Made by a program: the position numbers and the translations under genes
IMG/VR virus record: IMGVR_UViG_3300010885_007584
Location: 1 to 29,531 of that record
DNA length: 29,531 nt
Direction: 5' to 3' (one strand)
Origin: a virus
Notes under the pieces: generated by a model
What the model was told of the DNA's origin: nothing
Databases searched by the model: none
The model's input: the letters and a program-made list of their open reading frames with translations, nothing else
Part shown: piece by piece, positions 11,131 to 29,531 of the stretch
Numbering within the stretch: the first letter of the stretch is position 1
Layout of the letters: every line of letters begins with the position of its first letter

Positions 11131-12300
11131 ATGGAAGAATTAAAAAAATTTGAGGATGCTCTTGCATCCAAACTGGCGGAGCAAAAAGCTGCCGTTTCAG
11201 CAGAAAACGAAAAGGCTGCAAAAGCCTTCGAAACACGCATTGAGCAAATCAATGAGCAACTTGTAAAGAACAACCAATCTCTTGAAGAGGCTCGTAAAGA
11301 AGCACTGGAAGCTAAAGCAGCATTGGGTAAAATCAACGCTAAGACTGAAAGCAAAGTTGCTACATCTTACGCAGAGCATATTAACGTTATCAAAGGCGAA
11401 ATTGCTAATGTAATTGAGAAAGGTTATAACGAAATCAAAAATGCTGCACGTACAAATGGTAAGGGTTTCTCAGCAGACCTTGACCTGAAAGCAGTTGGCA
11501 CTATGACCATTGCAAACAACCTTACTGGTTCTGTTTACACATCTTACGTTGACAATCCTGCACTGCGTTCATTCGTGAACCCACACCTTCGCAGCGTGTT
11601 CAACATCATCCCTGTATCAACTGGTTCAGTATCTTTCCCACGTGGTAATACCCCCACGGGAGAAGGCAGTTTTGGCAAACAATCGGAAAATACTGCTAAG
11701 CCTCAGGTGGATTATGACGTCACTGTTGTAAACACCGCATTGTCTTTCATCGCAGGATACGCTAAAGTATCTCGCCAGATGATTGATGATCTGCCTTTCC
11801 TTCAGGCTTACTTGCAGCAATCTTTAATTGAAGACTTCCAAAGAGCTGAAGATACATATTACCTGAATGCTATTGCATCTTCTGCAACCGCAGGTTCTTC
11901 TTCTGGTGCTAACACTGCCGAGAAGTTCATTGATTATCTTGCTCAGTTGGGTGCAGCGAATTGGACTGCTAATCTCGCTTTGATAACTCATGCAGGTTGG
12001 GCAGGTCTTCTGAAGACTAAGCCTGCTGACTACTCAGTACCTGGCGGTATGGTTATCGACAACAATGGTAATGTACGTATTGCGGGTGTTCCTGTTATAC
12101 CTCATAGCCTTGTAACTGCATCAAGAATGTATGTAATGGATACTACTAAGTTCGCCATTGCACAACAATCTGGACTCGCAGTAAGGTCTACTGAGTTCGA
12201 CCAAGATGACTTCATCAAGAATCTCATCACTTTCCGTTGCGAGGCTCGTTGTGAACTTCTTCAGTTCCAACCAAGCGCAGCAGTTTACGGAGCAATCTAA
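11131..12300 (+). CDS. Major capsid protein (HK97 fold) with scaffolding delta domain
   Basis: A 389-residue protein. Residues 1 to about 100 form a charged Ala/Glu/Lys coiled coil, matching the delta domain that acts as an internal scaffold and is removed by the protease upstream. The remainder follows the HK97 pattern: NPALRSFVNPHLRSVFNIIP, GSVSFPRGN (E-loop region), FIAGYAKVSRQMIDDLPFLQ (spine helix), EDFQRAEDTYYLN, and the C-terminal strand ITFRCEARCELLQFQPSAAV. Several hundred copies form the icosahedral shell. A terminator follows at 12320, as expected for a highly expressed gene. Confidence 0.95.
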   Translation: MEELKKFEDALASKLAEQKAAVSAENEKAAKAFETRIEQINEQLVKNNQSLEEARKEALEAKAALGKINAKTESKVATSYAEHINVIKGEIANVIEKGYNEIKNAARTNGKGFSADLDLKAVGTMTIANNLTGSVYTSYVDNPALRSFVNPHLRSVFNIIPVSTGSVSFPRGNTPTGEGSFGKQSENTAKPQVDYDVTVVNTALSFIAGYAKVSRQMIDDLPFLQAYLQQSLIEDFQRAEDTYYLNAIASSATAGSSSGANTAEKFIDYLAQLGAANWTANLALITHAGWAGLLKTKPADYSVPGGMVIDNNGNVRIAGVPVIPHSLVTASRMYVMDTTKFAIAQQSGLAVRSTEFDQDDFIKNLITFRCEARCELLQFQPSAAVYGAI

Positions 12301-12319
12301 TCCTGTTTCATTCTCATAC

Positions 12320-12354
12320 GGGGGAGGTGTAAAAGCCTTCCCCTATTTTTGTTT
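12320..12354 (+). terminator. Rho-independent terminator after the major capsid gene
   Basis: An 8-bp stem GGGGGAGG (12320-12327) / CCTTCCCC (12336-12343) with one G-U pair and an 8-base loop is followed by TATTTTTGTTTT. It separates the head operon from the methyltransferase gene. The loop contains one copy of GGTGTAAA, the iteron sequence, probably by chance. Confidence 0.75.
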
Positions 12355-12355
12355 T

Positions 12356-12844
12356 ATGCCATATTCATACGATTATTTCAAAGAAGAGTTTTACCACCAC
12401 ATGAAATCTACTTTCCCCGTTGGAATGTATATTTTGGATGTCGGTGCAGGGTCTGGTCAGTATGGTAAAAATCTAAATAGTAAATTTGAGATTGATGCTC
12501 TTGAAATCTTCAGACCATATGTTGAAGAGTTTAATTTAAAAACAATTTACGATAACGTAATTATAGGTGATATACGGGAGTTTGATACCAAAGGTTATGA
12601 TTATGTAATCATGGGTGATATCTTAGAGCATTTGACCTATGATGAAGCCACAGAGGTACTCAATGGGATAAAGTGTAAATATATGTTTGCCGTACCCTAT
12701 AAAATGAAACAAGGCGAAATAAACGGAAACATACATGAAACGCATCACCAAGATGATTTGACACATGATTTGGTATTGGAAAGATATAAAGATGTTAGAT
12801 GTCTATTTAGGAATTTAGACTATGGGTATTATGCAAACTATTAA
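12356..12844 (+). CDS. SAM-dependent methyltransferase (class I)
   Basis: A 162-residue protein from the ATG at 12356. Upstream in-frame codons run through the terminator and the capsid gene and are rejected. Motif I is ILDVGAGSGQYG (residues 26-37). An acidic strand ends the next unit (IDALEIF), and YDYVIMGDILEHL carries the D-x-L-EH motif common in small-molecule and sugar methyltransferases. The core is short, with no obvious target-recognition domain, so a DNA methyltransferase is unlikely. With the glycosyltransferase behind it (two bases away), it probably modifies a glycan, either on the virion or on the host surface. It looks more AT-rich than the capsid gene before it. Confidence 0.8.
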   Translation: MPYSYDYFKEEFYHHMKSTFPVGMYILDVGAGSGQYGKNLNSKFEIDALEIFRPYVEEFNLKTIYDNVIIGDIREFDTKGYDYVIMGDILEHLTYDEATEVLNGIKCKYMFAVPYKMKQGEINGNIHETHHQDDLTHDLVLERYKDVRCLFRNLDYGYYANY

Positions 12845-12846
12845 AT

Positions 12847-13821
12847 ATGAAAATACTTGCATCGATTCATTTATATCCACCTCAACATAATTGTGGTGCT
12901 GAGTATATGCTGCATGGAATACTAAAACACTTACAATCTGAAGGGCATCAGATTAAAATATTACTACATCAAGCGAATCATTATAAAATAACAAATAATT
13001 ACGTTTTTGATGACATTGATGTATTCCCACCGAATGCAAATGTCATTGATGGCTTAATGAGATGGTCAGATGTAGTATTTACCCATTTGGATTACACACG
13101 TTGGACAATTCACACCGCTAAACTTTATCGGAAACCAGTATTTCACCTTATACACAATTCACATCCGTACCCTGAAATTATTGATGCTGAAAATAAGCAG
13201 CACATTATTTATAATTCTTTGTGGTTAAAAGACCTATTGAATTACAAATATCCTAATTTTGTATTAACCCCACCTTGCGACTATCGTTTCTACGATACTA
13301 ATACTGACACTTCTAAGAATAATTACATTACACTAATAAACTTAAACGAAAACAAAGGGGGTAAGGTCTTTGCAGATATTGCCCGTGCGATGCCACATAA
13401 ACAATTTTTAGGTGTTCTTGGTTCATATGATGAGCAAGTAACCGAAAATCTGCCAAATGTGACATATTTTAAAAATAGTCCGAACATACTTGATGCTTAC
13501 AAGCAAACTCGAATTTTGCTCATGCCATCGCATTATGAGAGTTGGGGCAGAACGGCAACAGAGGCAATGAGTAGCGGTATTCCTGTGATTTGTACTGAGG
13601 CGGATGGTTTAAAGGAAAACTGCGGTAAGGCAGGTATATACATTAAAAACAGAACCGATGTTAAGGAATGGGTCAGAAGAATTACTGAACTTGATGAAGA
13701 AAAAGCCTATCAAGGAGCATCAAGAAAAGCAAAAGCAAGGTCAAGAGAACACGATCCGAGAGAAGCACTCAATCACTTTAGCACTTGGTTCAAAGAAAAA
13801 GTACAACAATGGTATACATAA
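12847..13821 (+). CDS. GT-B glycosyltransferase (GT4/GT1-like)
   Basis: A 324-residue protein. The N-terminal Rossmann domain begins MKILASIHLYPPQHNCGAEY, with the Gly-Ala-Glu pattern of family 4 enzymes. The C-terminal nucleotide-sugar domain holds ENKGGKVFADIA, LLMPSHYESWGRTATEAM with the E-x7-E motif (Glu231, Glu239), and SSGIPVICTEADGLKENCG. It would transfer a sugar from a nucleotide donor. Placed between capsid and connector genes with a methyltransferase, it may decorate capsid or tail proteins, or alter the host glycan to block superinfection. No transmembrane segment is seen. Confidence 0.88.
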   Translation: MKILASIHLYPPQHNCGAEYMLHGILKHLQSEGHQIKILLHQANHYKITNNYVFDDIDVFPPNANVIDGLMRWSDVVFTHLDYTRWTIHTAKLYRKPVFHLIHNSHPYPEIIDAENKQHIIYNSLWLKDLLNYKYPNFVLTPPCDYRFYDTNTDTSKNNYITLINLNENKGGKVFADIARAMPHKQFLGVLGSYDEQVTENLPNVTYFKNSPNILDAYKQTRILLMPSHYESWGRTATEAMSSGIPVICTEADGLKENCGKAGIYIKNRTDVKEWVRRITELDEEKAYQGASRKAKARSREHDPREALNHFSTWFKEKVQQWYT

Positions 13822-25932: not shown

Positions 25933-26310
25933 ATGACTTACAAGGAACTAATCGAAGCAATGCAAATCTTGGTTCAGAACATCGGCAACCAAGAGACAAA
26001 AACACAGAAGAAGCTGCTCAAAATTCACGGCAAGCTCAAAGAATACTACGAAGAGTACGAAGAGAAGCTTAATGACATTAGGCTTGAGAATGCCATGACG
26101 GAAGAGAATGGTGCGCTGATTCTTGACGAGAAGCAAGGTTACAAGTACAATAAAGATGGTCAAAGGAAGATGTATAAGGAGATTAAAGAATTACTAAATA
26201 AAGAGTTCAATTATGAACATATTGAAGTAATAAATACAAAAGGACTTGAAGAACACATATATTTAAAATATTTTACCACAGGGATAAATTTTATCGAAGA
26301 CAATGAGTGA
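25933..26310 (+). CDS. Coiled-coil protein of unknown function, first gene of the lysis operon
   Basis: A 125-residue protein from the ATG at 25933; the earlier TTG at 25912 lies in the promoter. Residues 1-60 are strongly helical and charged (LVQNIGNQETKTQKKLLKIH, then KEYYEEYEEKLNDIRLE), a probable coiled coil. A short beta segment follows (NGALILDEKQGYKYNKDGQR). I know no function for it. It overlaps the next gene by eight bases. It may be a structural or regulatory protein expressed late. Confidence 0.7.
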   Translation: MTYKELIEAMQILVQNIGNQETKTQKKLLKIHGKLKEYYEEYEEKLNDIRLENAMTEENGALILDEKQGYKYNKDGQRKMYKEIKELLNKEFNYEHIEVINTKGLEEHIYLKYFTTGINFIEDNE

Positions 26311-26515
26311 GATGCAGTTCATAATAGATCGTTTGGAGGCAATTGATTCAAAGTTTGATGAGAAATTAGATAAGATTCTCATTCAAACTACGAGAACGAA
26401 TGGTAGGGTGACTGGTCTTGAGAACTGGAAACGTGGTGTATCAAAAACGACATGGTGGGTTCTTGGTATAGTGGGCGCAGTTATTCTTTTATTAATCCAA
26501 AAATATCTATTATGA
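26303..26515 (+). CDS. XhlA-like membrane protein (holin accessory)
   Basis: A 70-residue protein. The first 45 residues form a charged helix (IIDRLEAIDSKFDEKLDKIL ... NGRVTGLENWKRG). One transmembrane helix follows at about 49-68 (TTWWVLGIVGAVILLLIQKY). This N-terminal coiled coil plus C-terminal anchor matches the XhlA/haemolysin group found beside phage holins. The stop overlaps the next start as ATGA (26512-26515). Confidence 0.7.
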   Translation: MSEMQFIIDRLEAIDSKFDEKLDKILIQTTRTNGRVTGLENWKRGVSKTTWWVLGIVGAVILLLIQKYLL

Positions 26516-26742
26516 TGAGCAGTTTTTTCAGTCTTAACAAACGTGATGCCATTAATGGTTTAATCGTTGCCTTTCTTTCTGCTGCCCTTGCAGGTACTAT
26601 TGCTGCACTTGAAGCAGGTGTTCTTCCTTCTCTTGATGCTTTAAAAGCTGATGGTTTATTCGGTCTTAAAGCAGCAGGTGCATATCTTCTTAAAAACCTT
26701 TTCACTAATTCACAAGATCAATTCTTGAATGCTGAAAAATAG
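26512..26742 (+). CDS. Holin
   Basis: A 76-residue protein from the ATG at 26512; a reading from 26452 would repeat the upstream gene in another frame. Two hydrophobic helices are visible: INGLIVAFLSAALAGTIAAL (about 13-32) and GLFGLKAAGAYLLKNLF (about 48-64). The ending KNLFTNSQDQ resembles Bacteroidetes phage holins. It would form holes in the inner membrane at the end of infection, releasing or activating the endolysin. It is embedded between the XhlA-like and spanin genes with overlaps at both ends. Confidence 0.75.
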   Translation: MMSSFFSLNKRDAINGLIVAFLSAALAGTIAALEAGVLPSLDALKADGLFGLKAAGAYLLKNLFTNSQDQFLNAEK

Positions 26743-27187
26743 TTTTTTGATTGTTGTTGTTATGGTTCTGGTTGGGTGCAATCCTGTTCGATTCGTTCTG
26801 CGGGATGCACCTTCCTTTCGTATTGTTGCTGATGAAGTTATAAAGCGTGGGTATTGTTTGAATGATACAACGTACATTCATAGCACAGACACGCTTGAAA
26901 TAACGGACACTTTGACAATGGTTTATGTTGATACTGCGGTGGTAAATGATACCACTTACTTTTGGGAAACAAAGTTTGAGACTATAACCAAGACCAAGAC
27001 TATTCGTGATAGCATAAAATCTGTTGTTATTGATTCTGCCCAGGTCAAGGTTTTACGCAGACATTTACAAGACAGTGAAAACAAACTATCCGCTGCGTTA
27101 AAGGATCAGAAAATATTAAAAAGGATTATGTTTTTTATGGGTGGTGGGGCATTGATATTCTTTTTGCTCTTATTCAAACTAAAATGA
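26729..27187 (+). CDS. Unimolecular spanin candidate (lipoprotein with C-terminal membrane anchor)
   Basis: A 152-residue protein. The N-terminus is a lipoprotein signal: hydrophobic residues 6-15, then lipobox LVGC with the lipidated Cys17. The middle is beta- and then helix-rich (DTTYIHSTDTLEITDTLT; coiled coil near 110-128). The last 20 residues (MFFMGGGALIFFLLLFKLK) are one membrane helix. A protein anchored in the outer membrane by lipid and in the inner membrane by a C-terminal helix is the architecture of T1 gp11-type u-spanins, which fuse the two membranes during lysis. The lysis-cassette position supports this. It overlaps the holin by 14 bases. Confidence 0.75.
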   Translation: MLKNSFLIVVVMVLVGCNPVRFVLRDAPSFRIVADEVIKRGYCLNDTTYIHSTDTLEITDTLTMVYVDTAVVNDTTYFWETKFETITKTKTIRDSIKSVVIDSAQVKVLRRHLQDSENKLSAALKDQKILKRIMFFMGGGALIFFLLLFKLK

Positions 27188-28170: not shown

Positions 28171-28402
28171 TGAAGACCCAGACCTTAACGAATCAGAAGA
28201 CTTTGTTTTTGAGCCTATTGATTATACTGTTTATATCAATTCGGCTTGTAATGTGTTAGATGTAATAAATCATTATGAGCCTCTAACAAAGGATAATCAG
28301 CTCAAAAAAGCACGAATACTGCGTAAGTGTATGCGAATAGTTGAACATTCAGTTGACGAGATTTATAAAGAATTATTTGACCAAGAAGAAGAAGAAAATT
28401 AA
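28154..28402 (+). CDS. Small acidic protein of unknown function
   Basis: An 82-residue protein with acidic ends (DEDPDLNESED at the start, FDQEEEEN at the end) and a helical middle (KKARILRKCMRIVEHSVDEI). It overlaps the metallophosphoesterase by 17 bases and ends four bases before the endolysin start. There is no membrane segment. No function is recognised; a regulator or partner of its neighbours is possible. Confidence 0.65.
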   Translation: MAKFTDEDPDLNESEDFVFEPIDYTVYINSACNVLDVINHYEPLTKDNQLKKARILRKCMRIVEHSVDEIYKELFDQEEEEN

Positions 28403-28406
28403 AAAT

Positions 28407-28901
28407 ATGGACAAGATAACACTTGAAAGAATTAAATTAATCCATCCAAAATTAGAGAAGGAACTAAATAAGATTTACGCAGAGATTTGTGAGGCTCTTG
28501 ATGGCAGGGCAGAATGCAGATTTACGCACACTTTACGGACTTTTGTAGAGCAAGATGCTTTATATGCACAAGGCAGAACAAAGCCTGGCAAAGTGGTTAC
28601 AAGAGCCAAAGGAGGAGATTCTACGCATAATTACGGACTTGCAGTTGATATCGTTCTCATGGTTGCAGAAAAGCCTGTGTGGGATATAAAAATGGACTAT
28701 GATAAAGACGGCAGATCAGATTGGATGGAGGTGGTAGACATATTTAAAAGATACGGATGGATATGGGGAGGAGATTGGAAATTTGTCGATAATCCACATT
28801 TTCAAAAGACTTTAGGTCATACTATTGCTGAATTAAAGACTTATTGGAAATCTAAAAAAGTATATACTGCCGATAATGGTCAGCAGTATATAAGATTATA
28901 A
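28407..28901 (+). CDS. Endolysin, M15 peptidase (L-Ala-D-Glu endopeptidase type) with EF-hand-like loop
   Basis: A 164-residue protein from the ATG at 28407; the longer reading from 28341 overlaps the previous gene in another frame. The M15 motifs are STHNYGLAVDIVL (zinc ligands His74 and Asp81) and VDNPHFQ (catalytic Asp128, zinc ligand His131). Between them lies DYDKDGRSDWME (97-108), with Asp at loop positions 1, 3, 5 and 9 and Glu at 12, a canonical EF-hand calcium loop. T5 endolysin, of the same family, is known to be calcium-activated. No signal peptide is present, so export depends on the holin. It is the last gene on the + strand. Confidence 0.9.
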   Translation: MDKITLERIKLIHPKLEKELNKIYAEICEALDGRAECRFTHTLRTFVEQDALYAQGRTKPGKVVTRAKGGDSTHNYGLAVDIVLMVAEKPVWDIKMDYDKDGRSDWMEVVDIFKRYGWIWGGDWKFVDNPHFQKTLGHTIAELKTYWKSKKVYTADNGQQYIRL

Positions 28902-29111
28902 AATATATTCCTTATTAGGATTTTCAGGAAAACGCCTGAATTCAACCTTTGGAAAGTAGTAATCAAACTGATCCGCTTTTATCCACTGATCTTTAAATTG
29001 GAATTTTAAGCCGTTTTTATAACGCCATAAAACGTTATAGCGATTTAATTTTGCCTCCATATAGTATTTAACACTACTACTTATCGTAACGTTCCGCATA
29101 TCCATTTTCAA
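28896..29111 (-). CDS. Small protein of unknown function, - strand
   Basis: A 71-residue protein from the first of three close Met codons (29111, 29105 or 29099 are all possible). It is basic and aromatic-rich (YYMEAKLNRYNVLWRYKNGL, then KFQFKDQWIKADQFDYYFPK). It overlaps the nuclease gene by about 35 bases and ends convergently, overlapping the endolysin stop by six bases. The size and residue make-up suggest a small nucleic-acid- or protein-binding protein, but nothing specific. Confidence 0.6.
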   Translation of the reverse strand: MKMDMRNVTISSSVKYYMEAKLNRYNVLWRYKNGLKFQFKDQWIKADQFDYYFPKVEFRRFPENPNKEYIL

Positions 29112-29373
29112 TCATTTTGTCGTTTATGTTGCCAATTTTAACCATTGGCCTCCCGTACTTATCCAATCCCGTTGACTCAATTATGAATTCAGGTGGTAGC
29201 ATCTGCATTAGTGCCACCTTAGATACTTTACCCTCTTCAGTGTTCATTTCAGGAGCATTAATCCCCGCCAGACGGCAATTAGCGGTGTAAGTAAGTCGGA
29301 ATCCAAGATCAATCGTTAAATTGACCGTGTCACCGTCTACTACTCTGTTTAGTTTTGCTTTGTAGGTGTACAT
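29077..29373 (-). CDS. Staphylococcal nuclease-like protein
   Basis: A 98-residue protein from the ATG at 29373; a start at 29436 would add 21 residues overlapping the upstream gene. The motifs are RVVDGDTVNLTIDLG, NCRLAGINAPEMNTEE (Arg and Glu of the active site with the metal-binding Asp replaced by Asn in GINAPE) and GLDKYGRPM (second catalytic Arg). The family degrades DNA or RNA using calcium. The length is shorter than full staphylococcal nuclease, as in many phage homologues. No signal peptide is seen, so it acts in the cytoplasm. It overlaps the gene before it by 25 bases. Confidence 0.8.
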   Translation of the reverse strand: MYTYKAKLNRVVDGDTVNLTIDLGFRLTYTANCRLAGINAPEMNTEEGKVSKVALMQMLPPEFIIESTGLDKYGRPMVKIGNINDKMIENGYAERYDK

Positions 29374-29531
29374 TGTTTTATTTTTTCTAAGTAAATAATC
29401 GAATCCATTAACTCCTCCTGTAGATGTGTGAGCCACTCAGCATAAGACAAGTCATCTCGCTCCATTGTCGTGCCATACTTCTTAATTCCCACCTGGCTGC
29501 GTTGGTACATTTTGCGGATTACTGCTGGGAC
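29349..29531 (-). CDS. MazG-like / nucleotide pyrophosphohydrolase-like protein, C-terminal part (5' end outside window)
   Basis: The frame is open from base 29531 back to a TAA at 29349-29351; 60 residues are visible. Key segments are QVGIKKYGTTMERDDLSYAE and WLTHLQEELMDSIIYLEKIK. The E-E-x-x-D pattern in a long helix after KYGTT is seen in phage proteins related to the MazG/dUTPase-like all-alpha pyrophosphohydrolases, which hydrolyse nucleotides. The last ten residues (KQCTPTKQN) look unconserved. Because most of the protein is missing, activity cannot be judged. Confidence 0.6.
   Translation of the reverse strand, partial: VPAVIRKMYQRSQVGIKKYGTTMERDDLSYAEWLTHLQEELMDSIIYLEKIKQCTPTKQN

Follow-up and report, generated by a model that had tools for sequence, protein, structure and literature searches.

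An endolysin encoded in the window (the whole stretch of DNA analysed here, a virus record of 29,531 bases) carries a conserved, acidic 12-residue loop that we interpret as a calcium site. On balance, we consider it probable that a single EF-hand-like (strand-loop-helix) Ca2+ site has been inserted between W92 and the helix of residues 105–115 in an M15 L-Ala-D-Glu peptidase. The conserved ligand motif, the silent variation of its codons, and the predicted strand-loop-helix arrangement make bound Ca2+ likely, and a need for the ion in full activity or stability is a reasonable but less secure expectation. A true on/off calcium switch, in which the enzyme stays off for as long as the site is empty, is speculative and in our judgement rather unlikely.

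The record encodes terminase, portal, prohead protease, and capsid genes, and its endolysin belongs to M15 (Peptidase_M15_4). The Pfam match to PF13539 (7.5e-19, 68.5 bits) is above the cut-off of 25, the SxHxxGxAxD motif and a further histidine supply the zinc ligands, and the predicted fold is that of M15. Peptidase_M15_4 and VanY were the only Pfam models matching at E ≤ 0.1, PHROG matches were to endolysin families, including phrog_465, and NCBIfam gave a sub-threshold vanXY match and nothing else. Cleavage at L-Ala-D-Glu is the predicted activity, taken from the annotation of relatives. The mechanically called reading frame opens at a TTG at 28341, but the ATG listed in Table 1 is favoured by 11 of 12 aligned relatives, the twelfth being phiSM, which was entered with its longer annotated start. 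By eye, the N-terminus (MDKITLERI) contains no signal-peptide-like segment, which fits a cytoplasmic enzyme released by a holin and is no demonstration of calcium control.

The sequence-only reading, an earlier set of notes made from this DNA, had assigned it to a Bacteroidetes phage. That assignment is reasonable, as the 15 best-listed terminase matches are Parabacteroides and Bacteroides phages (36%–38%) and the named endolysins that match best come for the most part from phages infecting Riemerella, Cellulophaga, Elizabethkingia, and Flavobacterium, genera of the class Flavobacteriia. We note that one database entry, OQ791282.1 (Shigella phage Henu10), holds a lysin of the Riemerella-phage type at 40873–41349, the same coordinates as in Riemerella phage PT15 (ON933637.1), so its Shigella host label looks doubtful.

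Several other reading frames in the record drew our attention. By eye, a 152-residue frame at 26729–27187 (+) is arranged like a single-protein spanin, in that an LVGC resembling a lipobox lies close to the start and the C-terminal segment is hydrophobic; it had no Pfam or PHROG match, and NCBIfam gave a weak TcpD match only. Two small frames precede it (26303–26515 and 26452–26742), with weak hemolysin- and holin-like PHROG matches. Between the major capsid and head-tail connector genes lie a frame with a weak methyltransferase match (12206–12844, +) and a GT4-type glycosyltransferase (12847–13821, +), a pair that may point to virion modification. Additionally, a Staphylococcal-nuclease-like frame at 29077–29436 (−) matches at the Pfam cut-off (21 bits).

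Table 1. Endolysin gene, active-site residues, and loop in the window
Feature	Position	Strand	Basis
M15 (Peptidase_M15_4) endolysin, 164 aa, probable L-Ala-D-Glu peptidase	28407..28901	+	Pfam, PHROG, starts of relatives, Ply500 and LysB4 folds
H74, zinc ligand, pairs with T5 H66	28626..28628	+	Alignment; invariant in 13- and 57-sequence sets
D81, zinc ligand, pairs with T5 D73	28647..28649	+	Alignment; invariant in 13- and 57-sequence sets
W92, counterpart of T5 W84; loop begins five residues later	28680..28682	+	Alignment
EF-hand-like loop D97–E108, DYDKDGRSDWME	28695..28730	+	Translation, conservation, shuffles, AlphaFold2
W124, counterpart of T5 W114; no Ca2+ loop after W124 here	28776..28778	+	Alignment
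D128, probable catalytic Asp, three residues ahead of H131	28788..28790	+	Invariant in relatives; spacing of T5 D130 to H133
H131, zinc ligand, pairs with T5 H133	28797..28799	+	Alignment; invariant in 13- and 57-sequence sets

The coordinates and residue numbers first given for the loop were exact when counted from this ATG, and the loop does lie between the two zinc motifs, flanked by SxHxxGxAxD (H74, D81) and the PHF motif (H131). Its described ligand pattern, acidic residues at positions 1, 3, 5, and 9 and glutamate at 12, is likewise present and is conserved in relatives. Translated in six frames, the window contains the strict pattern D.D.D...D..E a single time. The pattern averaged 0.0 per six-frame residue shuffle (60 shuffles) and, when the residues of the endolysin alone were shuffled, appeared in 62 of 200,000 trials. 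Synonymous codons alternate at the ligand positions across 98 rows, with GAT/GAC at 56/42 in position 1 and GAA/GAG at 48/47 in position 12, which argues that these residues are kept by selection. Short acidic motifs do arise randomly, and a looser pattern was found twice in the window against 0.83 times per six-frame shuffle, as a chance pattern without function would predict. However, the strict pattern averaged 0.0 in the same shuffles, and 159 of 212 distinct sequences carry the motif with silently varied codons. We therefore rejected a chance origin, which is very unlikely, and give a functionless pattern negligible weight. Conservation is a stronger argument than the shuffle counts that the loop is real.

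Conservation was counted in two sets of sequences. The first alignment held 109 rows (the window and 108 loci), with 98 distinct domain sequences; an ungapped 12-mer was available for 89 distinct sequences, the window included and the distant L009, L011, L012, and L013 left out. One of the 89 (L026) looks misaligned. The remaining 88 had aspartate at position 1 (88), position 3 (87, with one asparagine), position 5 (88), and position 9 (88), and glutamate at position 12 (85, with three glutamines).

The larger set came from three IMG/VR protein-alignment scans, led by the window protein, the loop-free Ply500, and SP-15, together with single-protein scans and named phages. Each alignment-led scan kept the best 80 of up to 600 pattern matches, ranked by similarity to the first query, and the resulting proportions describe this fetched sample, chosen by similarity, and are not a census of nature. 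After prior exclusion of 15 distant, duplicate, or control loci, 274 loci were scanned on the plus strand and 268 yielded a domain. When both strands were read for the other six (L122, L123, L124, L126, L127, and L128), the loop was present in L128 and absent from the remaining five. Deduplication left 214 distinct sequences, window included, and dropping the distant L125 and L129 left 212.

The spacing from W92 to W106, counted without reference to the motif, was 13 residues in 160 of these 212 sequences and 3–9 residues in 52. The full ligand motif was present in 159 of the 160 longer segments, the single exception looking like a stray alignment, and in none of the 52 short ones. Ligand letters in the 159 loops were aspartate at position 1 (158/159) and position 9 (159/159), aspartate or asparagine at 3 and 5, and glutamate, glutamine, or aspartate at 12; the motif limits the letters countable here, while the counts by column (89 sequences) and by length (212 sequences) do not use it. 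Positions 4, 6, 7, and 11 varied widely, position 6 was not glycine in 63 of the 159 loops, and position 8 was leucine, isoleucine, valine, methionine, or cysteine in none. Changes at ligand positions are thus mostly those tolerated by EF-hands. Elsewhere in the domain, L005 and L023 carry extra residues (about 19 and 15, respectively) between the equivalents of R57 and V64, shortly upstream of the first zinc motif.

A quick tree was made from 82 representatives (60 with the loop, 22 without) with the loop columns omitted; it rests on few columns and has 44 of 79 inner branches unresolved. On this tree, loop presence needs at least four changes, three of them forced by well-supported branches. 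Shuffled labels needed 19.7 changes on average (500 shuffles), and none needed as few as four. Apparent losses within loop-bearing branches were seen in L008, L184, and the long-branched Pan5. Named carriers include Riemerella phage CRP19, Cellulophaga phiSM, Elizabethkingia TCUEAP1, Flavobacterium fF4 and 1/32, and Bacillus SP-15 and Goe8, and named phages without the loop include Listeria A500 (Ply500), Bacillus SPO1 and Pony, Pseudanabaena Pan5, and Pseudomonas LPPA15. Profile matches were also found in 9 of 299 genomes of the family of a Flavobacterium hungaricum genome; that genome has the loop in two (L119 and L128) of its three matches, and copies in two other genomes (L120 and L121) have none. 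Absence of the loop from L008, L184, Pan5, the Ply500 and SPO1 branch, and LysB4 shows that the M15 fold does not need it, and its presence or absence as a unit, with few signs of decay, is in keeping with a cooperative metal site. Alternatively, the acidic loop could contact the substrate or a partner without any metal, for example at amidated or basic groups of the peptidoglycan stem, which would agree with its location between the zinc motifs and its presence in some branches and absence from others. We find this quite improbable, as one would not expect a contact loop to preserve the EF-hand spacing 1-3-5-9-12, with aspartate and asparagine exchanging almost only at 3 and 5, or to be common to Flavobacteriia and Bacillus phages.

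AlphaFold2 modelled the window endolysin, as protein alone with no ion, at a mean pLDDT of 96.5 (57-sequence alignment), with block means of 95 and 97 over residues 91–110. In this model, the ligand residues do form a loop, lying between a strand (89–91) and a helix (105–115) that begins at loop position 9. The exit helix of EF-hands starts near position 9–10. The helix start in the window loop is thus as in EF-hands, but the entering helix is missing and a strand takes its place. In its own model (mean pLDDT 92.6), the loop-free relative L008 shows this succession of elements too, with the helix at 98–109 and lower confidence, at block means of 79–86, in parts of its second half.

Whether the loop is an EF-hand depends on the definition. 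The sequence-only reading had called it a canonical EF-hand, and the spacing of ligands, a 12-residue loop with oxygen ligands at 1, 3, 5, and 9 and glutamate at 12, bears this out, but the word canonical does not hold. The predicted structure is not helix-loop-helix, Pfam EF-hand models gave no match to the endolysin at E ≤ 0.1, and the PROSITE EF-hand pattern PS00018 matched none of the 89 12-mers, because position 8 is never leucine, isoleucine, valine, methionine, or cysteine. That pattern expects a hydrophobic residue at position 8. Strict EF-hand membership was ruled out by the Pfam result, position 8 of the PROSITE pattern, and the strand before the loop.

The closest solved structures by both sequence and fold were Ply500 (2VO9, 36% identity) and LysB4 (6AKV, 29% identity), top matches of the window model in Foldseek (E ~1e-11) and VIA (Z ~16). 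They differ from the window endolysin in having the segment shortened and no loop. From their titles, the 50 VIA-align rows displayed look like M15/LAS-fold entries, a listing that excludes no alternative; T5 endolysin (2mxz) scored Z 7.2 and hedgehog domains about 6, and a score below 8 may reflect no more than a shared arrangement. In BFVD, the best fold match was the endolysin of Bacillus phage SP-15 (A0A127AWA8), with TMq 0.79 and an rmsd of 1.4 over 140 columns; this protein carries the same loop, as DFDGDGVADWKE, in the corresponding position. Unlike the window protein, it has 313 residues, a C-terminal extension, and a Gram-positive host.

Calcium control is known for T5 endolysin, as the earlier notes stated. 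In EndoT5, the ion gates activity, and no added calcium is needed because the cell-wall substrate brings enough (excerpts of PMC10487532). Consequently, a simple assay may fail to reveal calcium dependence even where the switch is genuine. EndoT5 (PDB 2MXZ and 8P3A, as cited in the same excerpts) resembles the window endolysin in its M15 type, equivalent zinc ligands, and small single domain, and its calcium loop also lies between the second and third zinc ligands. However, the T5 loop follows GADW, the window loop follows W92 ahead of the WGGDW strand, and the sequences differ. According to these excerpts, the T5 loop contains W114, G118, and H121, its fixation is linked to I82 and W84, and T5 D130 is named catalytic. 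The counterpart of T5 D130 in the window protein would be D128.

Two MAFFT alignments of 20 M15 proteins paired T5 H66, D73, W84, W114, and H133 with window H74, D81, W92, W124, and H131, and agreed at the zinc ligands and GxDW anchors. Direct similarity between the two proteins was not significant (BLASTP E 0.33; hhalign probability 2.5), so the alignment leans on bridging sequences. In both alignments, the window protein has gaps where T5 has its calcium-loop residues S117, G118, H121, and D122, and T5 has gaps along most of the window loop, which ends 16 residues ahead of W124. No calcium loop follows the GxDW tryptophan in the window protein, where 6 residues separate W124 from H131 against 18 in the T5 equivalent. 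By their alignment, the two loops are distinct insertions beside the same tryptophan pair, and we rejected equivalence with the T5 calcium loop because of the different insertion points. The suggestion that this enzyme has the same switch as T5 is accordingly not supported, since the T5 loop follows W114 and the window loop is a separate insertion that T5 lacks.

A shared switch inherited from a common ancestor of both enzymes would account for two loops between the second and third zinc ligands, adjoining W84/W114 and W92/W124, but we consider it highly improbable. The insertion points and the spacing to the third zinc ligand differ, T5 has no insert before the helix, and the T5-related RB43 and RB49 enzymes have no calcium control (excerpts of PMC10487532); we note that the site comparison rests on bridging sequences and the middling fold match to 2mxz. 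Because both inserts adjoin equivalent tryptophans, the two sites, although different, may have similar effects, and the T5 and window loops could act on the same rim.

Known calcium sites in other proteins bear on what a bound ion would do. In the CHAP domain of LysGH15, the site has a single helix and is termed 'EF-hand-like' with a 'loop-F' pattern by its authors; mutation of aspartate ligands abolishes lysis, and Ca2+ gates activity while adding little thermostability (excerpts of PMC4022735). That 12-residue loop, with one flanking helix near an endolysin active site, is a close likeness, with calcium required there for lysis, but its fold is unrelated and its ligands are at 1, 3, 5, 7, and 12, with backbone oxygens at 5 and 7 (same excerpts). 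No CHAP domain was found among Pfam matches to the window endolysin at E ≤ 0.1. The N-terminal domain of Sonic hedgehog, a LAS-fold relative by its VIA score, has calcium beside its zinc site, held as two ions in two loops (88–94 and 128–139) with no 12-residue EF-hand loop; calcium is proposed to switch its activity off, and one of the two ions mainly stabilises (excerpts of PMC4102407).

The stabilising ion of ShhN suggests a purely structural role, in which tight, constant Ca2+ binding stiffens the strand-helix junction, providing thermal or protease stability outside the cell with no regulation. The clean presence or absence of the loop with little decay (212 sequences) and its place at the N-terminus of a helix in the AlphaFold2 model agree with such a role, but in EndoT5 and LysGH15 the ion gates activity (excerpts of PMC10487532 and PMC4022735). 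We hold this alternative just short of probable, and it overlaps our preferred explanation, which leaves stability or activity open.

In the inserted EF-hand-like site that we favour, one Ca2+ would be held by the side chains of D97, D99, D101, and D105, directly or via water, and of E108, with the backbone oxygen of R103 completing the ligands. By pinning the segment after W92 to the beginning of the helix, the ion would fix one rim of the zinc cleft, where the loop probably lies. The enzyme would be made in a Ca2+-poor cytoplasm, where the site is possibly empty, and the site would fill once the holin lets the enzyme reach the periplasm and murein. Affinity could be modest, as position 8 lacks its usual hydrophobic residue and position 6 is often not glycine.

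Some relatives carry a second optional insert just ahead of the W92 equivalent. In 55 of the 212 sequences, the V83–W92 segment has 17 residues and contains D-x-[DN]-x-[ND]-[GS]-x-[FYH]-[EDT]-x-[AT]; in the other 157, it has 3–13 residues and the searched motif is never present. Carriers of this insert (DxDxNGxFE) include L002, L007, L008, L015, L016, L019, and L032, the EF-like loop co-occurs in 54 of the 55 (the exception is L008), and the window endolysin lacks the insert. From its letters, the insert resembles a further DxDxNG calcium loop, one in which position 12 is not acidic. A wider proposal is that the EF-hand-like loop is a second, separately placed calcium module of M15, gained and lost as a unit, common to Bacteroidota and Bacillus phages and reaching the W92/W124 rim that T5 controls, so that two insertions would serve one gate, with the DxDxNGxFE insert adding a second ion and graded, calcium-dependent timing of lysis. 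We regard this combination as unlikely.

Excerpts of the open-licence literature on calcium and M15 endolysins did not describe the loop for this branch, with no mention of it in those from PMC7882524, PMC10588457, PMC12992299, PMC10706753, and PMC11597070, and they contained no binding or activity data for the window protein or its branch. Should the loop bind calcium and influence activity, T5 would no longer be the odd case among M15 endolysins, and calcium control would have arisen at two separate sites of the fold. The loop is frequent in the branch examined, at 159 of 212 distinct sequences in a sample picked by similarity, and the natural loop-plus L007 and loop-minus L008, which share one well-supported branch, form a clean comparison pair. 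If the proposal is true, assays in chelating buffers may misjudge such endolysins.
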